In this document: in pieces, positions 1 through 10,430 of the stretch
Numbering within the stretch: the stretch's first letter is position 1
Layout: each line of letters opens with the position of its first letter
NCBI GenBank assembly: GCA_030629485.1
Contig: DAOVOW010000037.1
Coordinates: forward strand, 1-10,430
DNA: 10,430 bases
Direction of reading: 5' to 3'
From: a bacterium
GTDB taxonomy: Bacteria; Zixibacteria; MSB-5A5; GN15; FEB-12
Position numbers and translations under genes: made by a program
Notes under the pieces: model-generated
The model's input: only the letters and a program-made list of their open reading frames with translations
Told to the model about the DNA's origin: nothing
The model's database searches: none

Positions 1-14
1 CAGAGATAGATATG

Positions 15-55
15 TCCATCATAACGGACAGAGATAGTGAACCTATTCACAAACT
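15..55 (+). repeat. 41-bp direct repeat, left copy
   Basis: This block matches 491-531 at about 36 of 41 positions. Three of the five differences fall in the four-base spacer of the enclosed palindrome, while the half-sites are nearly unchanged. That pattern fits selection on the half-sites. A further short copy of its CAGAGATAG word stands at 1-9, so more copies may lie beyond the left edge. Confidence 0.75.
35..52. promoter_or_regulatory. Rex-box-like palindrome, site 1 (one mismatch)
   Basis: The 18 bases read TAGTGAA-CCTA-TTCACAA, one mismatch from the published Rex operator consensus TTGTGAA-N4-TTCACAA. Rex is the NADH/NAD+-sensing repressor. The inner core, AGTGA-N6-TCACA, also resembles a CRP site, but the A and T next to the spacer favour Rex. 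The site lies inside a 41-bp block that recurs at 491-531. No gene starts nearby on either strand within the window, so the likely target is a minus-strand gene beyond the left edge. Confidence 0.5.
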
Positions 56-130
56 CACCCGCCAGCGAGGGGTTGGACCAGTTCCCCCCTTCAATGTTAA
101 CCGGGTTGAAAAAACTCGTGCCCGGTTGTG

Positions 131-168
131 TTGGGTCTTGATCCCGTTTCAACGGGATTGTGACCCGA
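131..168. repeat. Two-tier inverted repeat (hairpin) in the left gap
   Basis: Inner arms ATCCCGTT (141-148) and AACGGGAT (151-158) are perfect complements around two bases. Outer arms GGGTC (133-137) and GACCC (162-166) pair about exactly the same centre. The shared centre makes chance less likely. No run of T follows on either strand, so it is not a standard intrinsic terminator; it could be an operator or an RNA structure. Confidence 0.6.
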
Positions 169-205
169 CACATAACTACATATCAGACAAGGGCGGCAGG
201 TCACA

Positions 206-233
206 TCCGCCGCGGCGGACTCCTCGCAATGAC
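206..233 (-). repeat. GTCATTGCGAGG-type intergenic repeat unit
   Basis: Read on the minus strand, the segment starts GTCATTGCGAGGAGTCC and runs into a perfect 14-bp palindrome (TCCGCCGCGGCGGA, 206-219). The opening matches a word I know from dispersed intergenic repeats in many unrelated bacterial genomes. The usual closing half with GCAATCTC is not seen, so this copy is partial or a variant. The family assignment is from memory. Confidence 0.5.
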
Positions 234-320
234 GGCTCTCTGAGTTTATCGACAAGCCCTGTCAACGGGGCCAAAGCTGAGTCATACCAGCTACAAAATC
301 AGCCGCAGGGAGAGCCGACA

Positions 321-338
321 TTGTGAAACAGTTCACAA
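321..338. promoter_or_regulatory. Rex-box-like palindrome, site 2 (exact consensus)
   Basis: The 18 bases TTGTGAAACAGTTCACAA match TTGTGAA-N4-TTCACAA at all fourteen defined positions. The right flank AAC is shared with the three other sites in this gap. A chance exact match in under 1 kb is very unlikely. The palindrome is seen directly; the identity of the binding protein (Rex, or a CRP/FNR-type regulator) is inferred. Confidence 0.6.
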
Positions 339-375
339 ACTTGGTCGTGTCAGCCCACTCAGAACAAGTCGATTG

Positions 376-449
376 GGTGCCGTCACGCGTCTCTGCCTGA
401 CGCCCTTCGGCCTGCAAAGCAGCCGTCGGGCGGGGTCGCCCGACACCAC
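376..449. repeat. Hairpin-rich intergenic element
   Basis: Three dyads sit side by side: CGTCA (381-385) with TGACG (398-402); CTGC with GCAG around AAA near 412-422; and a perfect 8-bp stem GTCGGGCG (425-432) with CGCCCGAC (437-444) around GGGT. The outer ends, GGTGCCG and CGACACC, are near-inverted copies of each other, as in a small MITE-like or REP-like element. No target-site duplication is evident. It lies between Rex-like sites 2 and 3. Confidence 0.5.
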
Positions 450-490
450 GACCGACACACTCAAATAAGAGGAGCGCAGAGGTGCGTATA

Positions 491-531
491 TCCATCATAA
501 AGGACAGAGATTGTGAACTGCTTCACAAACT
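491..531 (+). repeat. 41-bp direct repeat, right copy
   Basis: This is the second copy of the block at 15-55. It runs from a shared TCCATCATAA word through GGACAGAGAT into the Rex-like palindrome and its AAACT right flank. The copies are 476 bp apart in direct orientation, with two other elements between them. Confidence 0.75.
511..528. promoter_or_regulatory. Rex-box-like palindrome, site 3 (exact consensus)
   Basis: The 18 bases TTGTGAACTGCTTCACAA match the Rex consensus at all fourteen defined positions. On the minus strand a TATGAT hexamer (494-499), close to a -10 box, lies downstream, so a protein bound here would cover the -35 area of a leftward promoter. The same layout exists at site 1 (palindrome 35-52, TATGAT at 18-23). 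No good -35 hexamer is visible, so the promoter itself is speculative. Confidence 0.6.
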
Positions 532-667
532 ACATACACCACAATAGACCCGATAAGAGACGTATGGAAACCCATAACGCAGGATAACATAGACCTGCCA
601 AGTCGCTTATGAACCACCATCGCCGGCCCCACAAAACCGCCCGAGACAAGTCCTAAACACAACTATA

Positions 668-685
668 TTGTGACAACATTCACAA
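668..685. promoter_or_regulatory. Rex-box-like palindrome, site 4 (one mismatch)
   Basis: The 18 bases read TTGTGAC-AACA-TTCACAA, one mismatch from the Rex consensus. The core is an exact TGTGA-N6-TCACA, so this copy alone would fit CRP as well as Rex. It lies about 110 bases beyond the stop codon of the propeller gene, so it is not placed to control that gene's own promoter. Confidence 0.5.
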
Positions 686-795
686 ACGGCCAGAACCGGC
701 GACACAGCGACAGGGGAGGTCAGTTAGTTTGGAAGAGTTCGGGAAGGGAAATCAGGAAGATGAAGCGCGGTAGGCACAGGCCGGTGCTGGCGTTC

Positions 796-3700
796 TTAAT
801 CCGAATATCGACGGAATTCGGGCCTCGTTGGGGCTGGGGATGCCGGGCAATTGCCGGGCGGCGGACCATCATTGAACATATAATCGACAAGGTGCACCAG
901 GTCGGAAATATCGATAACCTCGCCAGCGTCACCATCGACATTGCCTTCTTCCAAGCAAGGTGGGGGCAGTCCATCTTGGAAGAAGAATGCAACCAGATAA
1001 ACCAGGTCGGATATGTCGATCACATCGGCCAAGTCAAAGTCAATGTTCCCTCTAATGGGTGGGAGACAACAGCCCCAGTCGCAGGCATCGCCAACACCGT
1101 TGCTGTCGGCGTCTTCCTGGCCGGGATTGTAGACTAGTGGGCAGTTGTCGAGATCGCAGGTATTGGCAGGGAAGTCGGGATTACCGAACCCGTCACCATC
1201 GGTATCAGTGCAGGTATCGCAGGAGTCGCCAACCCCGTCGTCATCAGCATCCTCTTGAGCCGGGTTATATATGGCAAGGCAGTTGTCACAAGAGTCGCCG
1301 AACTGGTCGCAGTCGAAATCCTCCTGGTCGGGGTTGTAGACTGAGGGGCAATTGTCCTCATCGCAAGTGTTGGCTGGGAAGCCGGGATCACCATAGCCGT
1401 CGTTGTCCAAATCGGTGCAGACATCACAACTGTCGCCGATACCGTCGCCATCTGAGTCGACCTGACAGGGATTAGAAACGTCCGGGCAATTGTCCTCGGG
1501 GCAAGTGTTACTTGGAAAACCTGGATCTCCGAATCCATCACCGTCGGTATCGGTGCAGGTGTCGCATGGATCGCCGATGCCGTCGCCATCAGTGTCGAGT
1601 TGACCGGGATTACAGACGTCGAGACAATTGTCGCAGGAATCGCCAACCAAATCGCCATCGATGTCCTCCTGCTCCGGGTTGAACACGAAAGGACAATTGT
1701 CATCAGGGCAGTGGTTTTCCGGGTGGTCTGGGTCGCCGTAGCCGTCACCGTCAGAATCAATGCAGATGTATTCGATTCGGGCCAGCTTTGTGACGAAGGC
1801 GTCAAAACCGCCCTGCAGTGAATCCTGCACCGGATCGAGAGTGGGGAAGTCGGCCGAGCCGGTGTACCCAACCACATAAGCATTCAGGCCGGTGTCGACC
1901 CGTATTCCATAGCCAAAGTCATCGCCGCCGATACCACCCAGGTAGGTCGAATAAATCAACGAGTCGCCGTCATCACTGAGGGCTGTGATAAAGGCGTCGT
2001 ATCCGGCGCCGAAGGTGGGGTCCATAGCCTCCACAGTAGGGAAGTTCTGTGAGCTGGTGGCTCCCGTGACGTAGGCTTCGCCGTTATGATCGACGGCGAT
2101 CCCGGAGCCGAATTCCACATTCCAGCCACCGAGCATGGTGCTATAGGCCAGTGAATCGCCGCACGGGCCAAGCTTGCTGATGAACACCATCAGATAGCCC
2201 TGGAATACGGAATCATAGGCATTAACTGTGGGGAAATCGCTGGAAAGTGTAAATCCGGTGAGATAAGCGCTACCGTACTCATCTACATCCAAGGCAAGCG
2301 CGAGATCATCGCTCGTGCCTCCAAGGAAGGTGCTATAGACGAGGCTGCCGCCCATAGTGTCGAACCTGGTGACGAAGGCATCACCATAGGCCGGTCCCCC
2401 GCCATAAATGTCGTCGTAGGCAGCTTCGGTCGGAAAATCAGAGGAAGCGGTATATCCGGTTACCACGGCCGCTGAATCAGGGCTGACAGCTACTGATGCG
2501 GCACAGTCGTTACTGCTGCCGCCAAGATAAGTACTGATTTCAAGAAGGCCCTCGGGGCTGAGTCGGGCCATGAATGCATCCTGGTCGCCGCCGAGACTGT
2601 TGTCGTAGGGCGTTGCTGACAAGGTGAAATCGGCGGAGCCTGTGTTTCCAACCAGGTAGGCTCTGCCAGCATCATCAACCGCCACGCCGGCACCTGCGTC
2701 GTCGTTGCTGCCACCGAGGTAAGTGGAGAAAAGCAACGAATCGCCGGTTGGAGACAGCCTGAGGGCGAAGGCGTCTCGTCCCCCGGCATTGGACGATTGA
2801 AAGGCCTCGACCACCGGAAAATCGCCGGAAGCTGTTACGCCCGTGAGGCAGGCAGAACCATCATCGTACACCGAGATTCCGAGGGCACGGTCATCGCCTT
2901 CGGCTCCGCCGAGATATGTACTGTATGCCAGCGAGCCTCCGTCGGCCGAAAACTTGAGTACAAAAACGTCATGGGAGCAGACGGTGGTATCATTGTAGGT
3001 ACTGTCGAGCGGATCGGCCAGGGGGAAGTCAAGCGAGTTAGTATAGCCGGTAACGTATGCGCAGCCCGCGGAGTCAATCGCCACACTTCGTCCGTAATCA
3101 TTACCACCGCCGCCGACAAAACTGCTAAAAGACAAAACGGGATCGATTACCAGTGGTAGCGAAGAGTCATAATCGGGTCCCAGGTCAAAGCCGAAGGTGT
3201 TATCCCCATACAGGAGATAGTCCGCAGTCACACTGATCTGAGTATCACCATCGAGCTGGTAGGTCACAGGTCGCGTCTCGATCATCCGGCCGAAGGCGGT
3301 ACTGATTACTAAATCACCGGCGGCATTGGTAGAGAGCGAGTCGATGCCATGGTACTGGAGCCTGATCTGGCTGGGGTCGGCGGATGGCGATACTACGAAG
3401 TCGTATTCGAGGTGAGAGTAGGTACCCTTGAACTTAAGATCGATGCCAGGGTATATTTGGTGGTAGGATAGCTCGCGGTAGTTGGGTACCCGGAGCCGCC
3501 AATTATCGGGGTTGTTGCCGAGGAAGTAGTTGGAGTAGGAACCGAGAGTCACTTGGCCGCTGACTGCGCCGCCGCTCTGAGCGCCCAGCATAGATAACCT
3601 GACTATAAGGCCGGCCAGACTGTCTGGTTTGTCAGAGATACGATAGCCAAAGGCCACCAATGGATCTTCGTTAGTAGTGGTGTCAAGGAGTCGGGTGAAA

Positions 3701-3942
3701 TGATAGAAGACGCTATTCTGGGTGAACCAAATGGCGGCGCCTCCGGCATCGGCCCGAAAGAGAACGGCGTCATGAAACTGACCCGCATTGGCCGTGAACA
3801 TCAAACCGCAGTCGGTCAGATTCCGAAAGACCACATCACCGGGGTTGGGTTGATCCATCGCGTGAGGGCGTTGACGGACCAGTCCTCCCAAGACGGCCAA
3901 CAGGGTCAGCCCGGCGATCGTGAAGATAGTTGCTCGCTTCAA
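796..3942 (-). CDS. Secreted SBBP beta-propeller protein with TSP3 repeats and C-terminal dockerin
   Basis: The product is a large extracellular structural or binding protein; no catalytic motif is visible. The likely start is a TTG at 3940-3942, giving MKRATIF and a hydrophobic signal peptide (about residues 1-30), because a TGAGGAA ribosome site sits just upstream. A TTG at 3966 would add eight residues but has a poorer site. Residues of about 40-265 resemble the conserved N-terminal region of SBBP proteins (FTANAGQF near its start, YPGIDLKF and VIDPVLSF later). Seven SBBP repeats follow (about 267-727), with YSTYLGG at the start and YVTGxTxSxDFPT in the middle of each; seven fits one closed seven-bladed propeller. 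Next come Cys/Asp-rich TSP3-type calcium-binding repeats (about 728-955) and two dockerin-like halves (about 960-1028), then an 18-residue Pro/Arg-rich tail. It has its own promoter at 4002-4030. Ligand unknown. Confidence 0.9.
1077..1758 (-). repeat. TSP3-type calcium-binding repeats in the propeller gene
   Basis: Long units of about 46 codons, of the form [19 protein letters not shown] followed by DNCPxVxNPxQxDxD, recur four times. Two shorter 23-codon units of the form CDNCLxxxNPxQxD are inserted after the first and third long units. The dense Asp residues at DxDxDG positions and regularly spaced Cys pairs match thrombospondin type 3 repeats, which bind calcium and stiffen extracellular stalks. 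The long/short alternation differs from the uniform 23-codon array at 9551-10429. Confidence 0.85.
1760..3145 (-). repeat. Seven SBBP repeats coding for a beta-propeller
   Basis: Seven consecutive units of roughly 62-70 codons share the pattern (Y/F)STxLGG, then a V/I-x-V-D core, then a YVTGxTxSxDFP block and DAFVxKL. Unit 4 replaces the central glycine-rich stretch with [10 protein letters not shown], and unit 6 has NVEFGSG in place of the acidic loop. No blade is broken by a stop or frameshift. Seven blades is a common number for closed propellers. Confidence 0.85.
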
Positions 3943-3946
3943 CAGG

Positions 3947-3953
3947 TTCCTCA
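3947..3953 (-). promoter_or_regulatory. Ribosome binding site choosing a TTG start
   Basis: On the minus strand TGAGGAA stands four bases before TTG (3940-3942). This favours the internal TTG over the TTG at 3964-3966, which has only a weak GGA upstream. The chosen start also gives the usual signal-peptide opening of Met, Lys, Arg and a hydrophobic run. No in-frame ATG lies upstream as far as the promoter. Confidence 0.55.
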
Positions 3954-4001
3954 GAAGCAGTGTCAATAGATCCGAAGCAGAGCTTCTCAGTAGACATCCG
4001 T

Positions 4002-9319: not shown

Positions 9320-10430
9320 TTACCAGGGGCAGTCCGCCGGTGGCGGGCCACCATTGAACATGTAATCTACCAAATAGACCATGTCAGCTATGTCGAGGGC
9401 TAAGTTTGCATCGACATCTGCTTCTTCGAAGCATGGTGGTTCCGGACCTCCGAAGAACATATAGTCAACGAGGTAGACAAGGTCGGCGATATTGGGCTGG
9501 TCGCCCATAATACCATCGACATCACCTCTCATGCCTTCACAGCAACCGTCGCAAGCGTCACCGATACCGTCCCCGTCAGAGTCTGCCTGATCCGGATTGT
9601 AGTCCTCGATGCAGTTATCGCAGGAGTCACCGACGCCGTCGACGTCAAGGTCTTCCTGATCCGGGTTATAGTGATCGGGGCAGTTGTCGCAAGCGGAACC
9701 CAAACCGTCGGCGTCCGGATCCTCCTGGCCGGGATTATAATCGGTCGGACAGTTGTCGACATCGCCGCAGACACCGTCGTTGTCAATGTCGTTATCCGGA
9801 TCATTAGGACACGCGTCGCAGGCATCGCCGATACCGTCGTTGTCACTATCTTCCTGGTTCGGATTGTAGTCATCCGGACAATTATCGCAGACAGAGCCGA
9901 TACCGTCGGCATCAGGATCTTCCTGATTCGGGTTGGCGTCATCGGGGCAATTGTCGCAAATGTCACCGACGTCGTCACCGTCGCCGTCCTCCTGATTCGG
10001 ATTGGCGTCGTTTGGACAATTGTCACAGGCGTCGCCTACCGTGTCGTTGTCGGCATCTTCCTGATCCGGGTTCTGATCGTCCGGACAGTTGTCGCAGACG
10101 TCGCCGACGCCGTCCAGGTCGACATCCGACTGGTCGGTGTTGGCATCATCGGGACAGTTGTCACAGACGTCACCGACGTCGTCGTTGTCGGCATCAGCCT
10201 GGTCGGTGTTCTGATGGTTCGGACAGTTGTCGCAGGCGTTGCCGACATCATCGCCATCGGTGTCGGTCTGATCAGTGTTGGGAACATCAGGACAGTTGTC
10301 ACAAGCGTCCCCTACCGTGTCGTTGTCGACGTCCTCCTGGTTCGGATTCTGGTCATTGGGACAGTTGTCGCAGACGTCACCGACGCCATCGCTATCGGCG
10401 TCCTCCTGACCCGGGTTGGGGGTATTCGGA
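9320..10430 (-). CDS. TSP3-repeat protein with C-terminal dockerin (5' end outside the window)
   Basis: About 369 codons are visible, open to the right edge, so the start, signal peptide and any N-terminal domains are missing. The visible part is almost wholly a calcium-binding repeat array (9551-10429), then a GCCEG linker and two dockerin-like halves: DVDGIMGDQPNIADLV and DVDANLALDIADMV, each followed by YLVDYMF and GGP. The first half has Ile where the fifth loop position is normally acidic, so it may bind calcium weakly; the second is close to canonical. The protein ends ADCPW. It is probably an extracellular stalk carrying an unseen N-terminal domain, comparable with the propeller protein at 796-3942. 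An internal TTG at 9701-9703 is not a real start, because the repeats continue unbroken upstream. A strong terminator follows. Confidence 0.9.
   Translation of the reverse strand, partial: PNTPNPGQEDADSDGVGDVCDNCPNDQNPNQEDVDNDTVGDACDNCPDVPNTDQTDTDGDDVGNACDNCPNHQNTDQADADNDDVGDVCDNCPDDANTDQSDVDLDGVGDVCDNCPDDQNPDQEDADNDTVGDACDNCPNDANPNQEDGDGDDVGDICDNCPDDANPNQEDPDADGIGSVCDNCPDDYNPNQEDSDNDGIGDACDACPNDPDNDIDNDGVCGDVDNCPTDYNPGQEDPDADGLGSACDNCPDHYNPDQEDLDVDGVGDSCDNCIEDYNPDQADSDGDGIGDACDGCCEGMRGDVDGIMGDQPNIADLVYLVDYMFFGGPEPPCFEEADVDANLALDIADMVYLVDYMFNGGPPPADCPW
9551..10429 (-). repeat. 69-bp TSP3 repeat array
   Basis: Eleven complete units of 23 codons, plus part of a twelfth at the edge, follow the pattern CDNCPxDxNPxQxDxDxDGxGD. 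The 69-base spacing is exact where checked (TGC codons at 9551, 9620 and 9689). One unit junction (about 9758-9820) carries an 18-residue insertion, CPNDPDNDIDNDGVCGDV. Units differ at the third-to-last and spacer residues, so the array is not freshly amplified. Confidence 0.9.

Follow-up and report, generated by a model that had tools for sequence, protein, structure and literature searches.

The left end of this stretch of DNA carries four copies of a regulator-like palindrome in what appears to be a gene-free region, and thus raises the question of which protein binds them and which gene they serve. The window, i.e., the whole stretch that was analysed, is the complete 10,430-bp contig C206 of a 2.47-Mb genome (G000, 83% complete); the contig end on the left, 34 bp ahead of the first site, therefore falls inside a larger array. 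A sequence-only reading had likened the palindromes to Rex operators and supposed that either a redox-controlled gene lay just left of the window or a dispersed repeat carried the operator around the genome. Comparison with related genomes indicates that the palindromes belong to an old, conserved cluster of redox-regulator-like sites, several hundred bases upstream of the gene for a large secreted protein.

The palindromes and the repeats around them

A search of the window for TTGTGA-N6-TCACAA at up to three mismatches returned exactly four palindromes, none assigned to a strand, at positions 35–52 (site b, TAGTGAACCTATTCACAA), 321–338 (site c, TTGTGAAACAGTTCACAA), 511–528 (site d, TTGTGAACTGCTTCACAA) and 668–685 (site e, TTGTGACAACATTCACAA). 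Measured against TTGTGAA-N4-TTCACAA, sites c and d are exact and sites b and e have one mismatch each, site e falling short of the full Rex consensus because of a C at position 7. Dinucleotide shuffles gave a mean of 0.22 palindromes and a maximum of 3, and none of 200 reached four, so the sites stand as originally described, as does the AAC right flank common to all four. They lie in register as direct repeats, and their spacers contain G and C. The region also seems to be free of genes, as had been proposed: the sole open reading frames that start in it, of 104 and 78 amino acids, are mechanical. Further frames extend into it from the right, and much of it is dispersed repeat. No Rfam family reached its gathering score in the window, and over 17 related loci the database returned two tRNAs only.

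The array is partly duplicated within its own genome. Two additional sites lie on contig C403 at positions 3980 and 4080, the latter with the same 18-mer as site b. Window positions 1–327 run parallel to C403:4046-4384 (256 of 296 aligned bases overall), with 59 bp identical at the start and 108 bp identical at 220–327, and this second array copy adjoins a gene that we call g864. The 18-mer of site c recurs at the equivalent place in two relatives (G001 and G005). Within the window, a 55-bp unit that includes a site (1–55, plus strand) is repeated at 477–531 with 82% identity. Beyond the two array contigs, sites in this genome are few (C200, C21, C335, C395 and a weaker one on C407); the other Rex-type sites are in the vicinity of the rex gene, of an aldehyde dehydrogenase and an ABC transporter (these two named by eye) and of a contig-end place.

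Comparing window positions 1–720 with the genome by BLAST, where the best 40 of 90 first-look candidates were scored, gave at least 44 match rows. Two dispersed intergenic repeats account for most, both on the plus strand: R1 (about 105–205, roughly 100 bp) with at least 18 further rows at 17 or more places, two rows coinciding on C130, and R2 (about 372–455, roughly 80 bp) with at least 19 further rows, one on C403. Neither contains the palindrome, and the suggestion that a dispersed repeat carries the operator is thereby contradicted. Among the matches listed, the remaining rows were one self match, four within 206–261 and two more on C403 (window 1–116 and 220–327).

An array upstream of a secreted-protein gene

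Across 61 genomes, G000 included, the pattern TTGTGA-N6-TCACAAAC had 55 exact matches in 29 genomes, versus 3 for the backward control pattern. The gene next to the array on C403, g864, encodes 864 amino acids and reads away from the array. A protein search of 41 genomes with g864 placed a number of sites approximately 0.65–1 kb ahead of the starts of the best matches. Sites at no more than one mismatch were found 0.6–1.75 kb upstream of the start in 18 of 26 matches, some of which may not be true orthologues; the eight matches that lack sites include two with only 696 bp (G045) and 456 bp (G047) of upstream DNA.

Ten aligned upstream regions share a sigma-70-like promoter (CTTGACA, about 17 bases, TA...T), then GTCTAGGGAAATAGTTGTG and a leader that runs to AAAGGAGCAT and the g864 start. 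The promoter of G000 reads TTGACA-N17-TA...T; transcription is presumed to start near GTCTAGGG. The leader motif, searched for independently of the palindromes, had 30 matches in the 61 genomes; those in G041 and G056 were left out because no promoter adjoined them, leaving 28 leaders in 26 genomes. In 21 of the 22 leaders with more than 500 bases downstream, the start of a g864 match comes 342–412 bases further along, the exception being G057. In 30,121 bases of upstream DNA, with at most 1.2 kb taken for any one of these 28, 45 sites were found at no more than one mismatch, compared with a mean of 0.08 and a maximum of 1 in 100 shuffles and none for the mirror motif. At least one site precedes 20 of the 28 leaders; the nearest is 258–404 bp ahead of the leader start, with a median of 343 bp, and no site at up to two mismatches falls within 80 bp of any of the 28 leader starts. 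Up to seven sites make up an array, the closest 258 bp and the farthest over 1 kb ahead of the presumed start.

The association has exceptions. At one mismatch or fewer, eight of the 28 leaders lack a site, in genomes where rex is present (for G026 only 370 bp could be inspected). A search by eye for perfect inverted repeats at −250 to −450 of the leaders without an array (two copies in G009, and G010, G014, G022, G025, G026 and G032) revealed no common replacement palindrome; one 2-mismatch site lies upstream of the G025 leader. Conversely, the leader motif was not recovered beside g864 in family f3 and part of f4 (G038, G039, G041, G044, G050), although arrays precede g864 there.

Where arrays occur, their sites outlast their surroundings. 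In G013, BLAST detects no significant similarity between two upstream regions except in the 47 bp nearest the promoter, but both hold an exact site at −357. Between congeners, the half-sites are mostly kept, as judged by eye, while the 6-bp spacer changes. Selective preservation of the array sites is thus what this comparison of sequences shows.

The leader itself is probably transcribed, since it holds a covarying hairpin: about 60 nt in, both arms change yet stay paired in most of 17 sequences (e.g., GGAAC/GUUCC, GUAACG/CGUUAC, CAACG/CGUUG and AUAACA/UGUUAU), and in G016_C262, where the arm finder failed, the fold shows the stem. With a length of approximately 340–410 nt and a strongly conserved 5′ part, the leader at L048:3283-3650 (minus strand) and its relatives form a candidate new leader RNA motif; Rfam gave only sub-threshold snoRNA-type matches over L048:3250-4384 (E 0.45–1.9). 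A second dyad, similar to TACTAC-N3..7-GTAGTA and clearest in G014 and G032, was observed immediately before the −35 element, at approximately −86 relative to the start of the g864 leader, in a stretch conserved in many relatives.

The product of g864 is likely a secreted or surface adhesin or scaffold. All 17 aligned relatives carry a C-terminal secretion-sorting domain, ten a He_PIG Ig domain and seven a cohesin domain, with matches at E up to 0.01 and some under curated cut-offs. In the PDB, the g864 profile further matches cadherin-repeat chains. A structure predicted for a relative from a two-row alignment was left unused because its confidence was too low (mean pLDDT 37, with 709 of 853 residues below 50).

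To the right of the array in the window is g1056 (796–3966, minus strand), encoding a beta-propeller protein of the SBBP kind that also has thrombospondin-3-like repeats (the NCBIfam match scores under its cut-off), whose relatives flank array sites in G001:C105, G005:C235 and G003:C98. On the last of these, the end of g312, a g1056 homologue (66% identity), the sites, the promoter and leader and g864 follow one another on one contig and in one direction. Contig C102 of G001, which holds g864 and the first site, ends in 141 bp identical to the reversed end of C105 and to the start of C11 (g424), and C105 carries the orthologues of the window genes g1056 and g312. The gene order in G003 and the contig overlap in G001 strongly indicate that g864, read leftwards, is the left neighbour beyond the contig edge. 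This fits the supposition of a redox-controlled gene just left of the window, the redox control itself being a candidate. Two further features of these neighbourhoods were observed. At the far end of the window (9548–10419, minus strand), 69/138-bp tandem repeats, by eye of the thrombospondin type-3-like calcium-binding kind, lie in a frame that reaches the contig end. The rex gene stands approximately 8–10 kb from g864 in G039 (C1:396000-412000, L408), with g348 and g424 between the two, and in G022 (C21:303000-319000, L409), where g348 and g424 lie beyond g864 and the array is absent.

Several genomes appear to hold this region twice. In G013 the final 127 bp of one promoter-leader copy, at a contig end, are also those of a second copy at another contig end, and in G009 two copies have 137 bp in common. 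We read such genomes as having two near-identical g864 copies with different upstream neighbours, collapsed in assembly. G016 has two separate g864 genes with an array at each. Array copies within a genome are more alike than those between genomes (96.5% identity in G005 and 92.9% in G001), the excess being only slight in G000 (86.5% versus at most 85.5% between genomes). The ends of contigs within arrays had also suggested attC-like integron or tyrosine-recombinase sites; this idea was dropped because the contig breaks, with exact identities of 127, 137 and 141 bp, fit two-copy promoter/g864 regions and the sites track g864.

These duplications, which break assemblies, together with the repeated 55-bp unit and two dispersed families with at least 17 and 19 further places, could be taken to mean that the palindromes arose as by-products of intergenic repeats, dispersed or mobile, and have no regulatory role. 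This is very improbable. The R1 and R2 families are free of sites, few such sites occur in G000 outside the two array contigs, and the position of the site is kept in G013 although the surrounding DNA is dissimilar. Carriage by dispersed repeats is rejected because, besides the lack of sites in R1 and R2, the array precedes one gene family, that of g864, in three taxonomic families (f1, f3 and f4).

Candidates for the binding protein

A rex gene was found in 56 of the 61 genomes and in 22 of the 24 with arrays. In G000, where the sequence-only reading had proposed looking for one, it lies at C21:3558 and scores above six NCBIfam Rex cut-offs (NF003995, 255.9 bits). No rex was found in the array genomes G044 (76% complete) and G057 (one contig, 83% complete), nor in the 40 kb around the G057 array. 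TTGTGAA-N4-TTCACA(A/T) stands upstream of 30 of 31 rex genes examined, G031 being the exception, and the likeness first seen to Rex operators is upheld in that the array half-sites are those of the lineage's own rex operators. Position 7 of the array half-sites is A in 68% of cases, versus a background of 23%, and G in 1%. The array sites are nevertheless looser in sequence than the rex operators, which have A7 and T12 together in 30 of 30 cases; among 82 array sites, 34 have both, 43 have one and 5 have neither. In PMC2883068, positions 4 and 5 are described as mattering most for S. aureus Rex, mismatches at positions 1 and 7 as frequent in confirmed sites, though mostly lower-affinity ones, and an A/T-rich spacer as favoured. 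Rex is the best candidate for the protein that binds the array.

The core of the palindrome would also admit a dimer of the CRP/FNR superfamily, akin to HcpR or CRP. CRP classically recognises TGTGA-N6-TCACA with a loose spacer, and the spacer of the array is loose. A gene of this family is present in G000 (C99) and in 17 of the 24 array genomes. Moreover, the identical consensus TTGTGANNNNNNTCACAA is assigned to HcpR in Desulfovibrio (PMC545781). However, a protein with both cNMP and HTH_Crp_2 domains was not found in seven of the 24 array genomes (G008, G018, G024, G038, G041, G044 and G057), four of which (G018, G024, G038 and G041) are 96–98% complete; in G018 and G041 a Crp-HTH match lies just above the cut-off (27.5 and 31 bits) with no cNMP domain beside it. 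Parsing 27 of the 31 lineage proteins gave the recognition helix ETLSR in 26 and QTFSR in one, both of which we take to be FNR-type. A recognition helix that reads TGTGA is of the R-E-x-x-G-R type, and none was seen in the 27 parsed proteins (4 of the 31 were unparsed by the script). G is nearly absent from position 7 of the array half-sites, which also argues against a binder of this family. We therefore hold a CRP/FNR dimer to be improbable, and the original judgement that CRP fits less well than Rex is sustained by the seven array genomes without a CRP-type protein and the FNR-like helices.

A third dimeric regulator, neither Rex nor CRP, may recognise the TTGTGA half-site; the likeness of the array to rex operators would then come from convergence or from a Rex paralogue. 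A third regulator would account for the looser spacer (A7/T12 in 34 of 82 versus 30 of 30), for the arrays in G044 and G057, where neither rex nor a CRP-type protein was found, and for a placement relative to promoters that differs from that of rex operators. Against this, the A7/T12 preference is common to the array and the rex operators, and there is one rex-type match per genome where found, except for a weak partial second in G030, so that no Rex paralogue is in sight. Such a regulator is unlikely, though with a real chance of being the binder.

Three exact TTGTGA-N6-TCACAA sites each were also observed at G002:C12:65348-65723 (L091) and G003:C154:1428-1798 (L093), adjoining a locus that by eye encodes multihaem cytochromes and an NHL protein. 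They look unlike Rex sites because five of the six have G at position 7 in one half, and they may belong to another regulator.

Rex, as the preferred candidate, would not act here from the expected place. Rex is known as a promoter-occluding metabolic repressor. Since the nearest site lies 258–404 bp upstream of the presumed transcription start, the array is not a promoter-overlapping Rex cluster, and the usual repressor layout, with the operator at the promoter, was seen in none of the 28 leaders. In the sense of distance from the presumed transcription start, the 18-mers do lie mainly away from promoters, a placement that the sequence-only reading had named as speaking against it. Promoter-like hexamers (score of at least 10 of 12) accompany 12 of 30 rex operators, 1 of 45 array sites and 5 of 400 random positions. 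The array sites thus have no link to such hexamers, which makes simple occlusion by Rex unlikely.

Proposed regulation and comparison with known systems

With a probability of roughly 60%, we propose that a distal array of Rex-type operators controls g864, the secreted surface protein of about 864 amino acids, and that the four palindromes form the outer part of this array. Comparison of the genomes shows the link between array and g864 in relatives, the distance from the promoter, the preservation of the sites and the presence of rex. At a low NADH/NAD+ ratio, several NAD+-bound Rex dimers would occupy the array and act on the sigma-70-like promoter some 0.3 kb away, via looping or a long nucleoprotein stretch. 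The most likely effect of the bound array would be lower transcription, a direction guessed from Rex biology elsewhere. NADH would release the dimers, so that the cell surface would follow the redox state. Multi-dimer occupancy, distal action and redox release are less certain than binding by Rex.

Several observations weigh against a role for Rex: the looser spacer, the G and C in the spacers of the window sites, the rarity of promoter hexamers (1/45 versus 12/30), and the arrays of G044 and G057 without a rex match, the G057 leader also having no clear g864 match after it. Those weighing against the Rex and g864 pairing are the 8 of 28 leaders that are site-free, the arrays of G038, G041 and G044 without the leader motif, and the location of g864 beyond the window.

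More broadly, and more doubtfully, Rex may work across an order of Zixiibacteriota in the manner of an enhancer or silencer, from several sites and over a long range. Its target would be a major surface protein whose gene has a long structured leader and is present in duplicate in several species, and Rex may thereby couple surface composition to NADH/NAD+. If so, Rex control would reach beyond fermentation and respiration genes, to the cell surface in an uncultured bacterial group, and Rex action would extend from promoter occlusion to action at a distance. The conserved array, promoter and structured leader would together be a strong regulatory handle on a seemingly important secreted protein that is duplicated in at least some genomes.

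Among known systems, distal multi-site enhancers and silencers, such as the upstream activating sequences of NtrC or NifA, have multiple sites for dimers, located some hundreds of bp ahead of the promoter. The array has the same multi-dimer layout; the promoter here, however, is sigma-70-like. The HcpR/CRP sites (TTGTGANNNNNNTCACAA; HcpR sites in PMC545781) share the core half-sites and the 6-bp spacer with the array, which differs in its preference for A7 and in occurring in some genomes without a CRP-type protein. The single autoregulatory rex operators of the lineage (C21:3466 in G000) have the same half-sites as the array, but are strict at A7/T12, usually comprise one site, adjoin their gene and have a good promoter-like pair nearby in 12 of 30 cases.

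Gram-positive Rex operators have the same palindrome and spacing as the array (TTGTGAAW4TTCACAA in S. aureus, PMC2883068), and the tolerance of S. aureus Rex at positions 1 and 7 is that seen in the array. A GTDB scan for two sites 90–120 bp apart returned 99 stretches, many of them from Bacillales, where clusters of 2–4 Rex-type sites often lie within approximately 150 bp of gene starts, the nearby genes by eye encoding NADH oxidase, PflB, AdhE, CydA and Ldh. Clusters of 5–9 palindromes were also observed in Bacteroidales, Treponema and others (L120, L122, L128, L131, L169, L192, L198, L205, L208 and L211). In the titles and opening lines of abstracts of the open-access papers that the searches listed, no description was found of a distal Rex array or of Rex in Zixibacteria. 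In contrast to the Gram-positive operators, the sites described here number up to seven, are distal, and precede a secreted-protein gene rather than one for fermentation or respiration. Clustered Rex operators are already known, and what is new here is therefore the distal position and the target.
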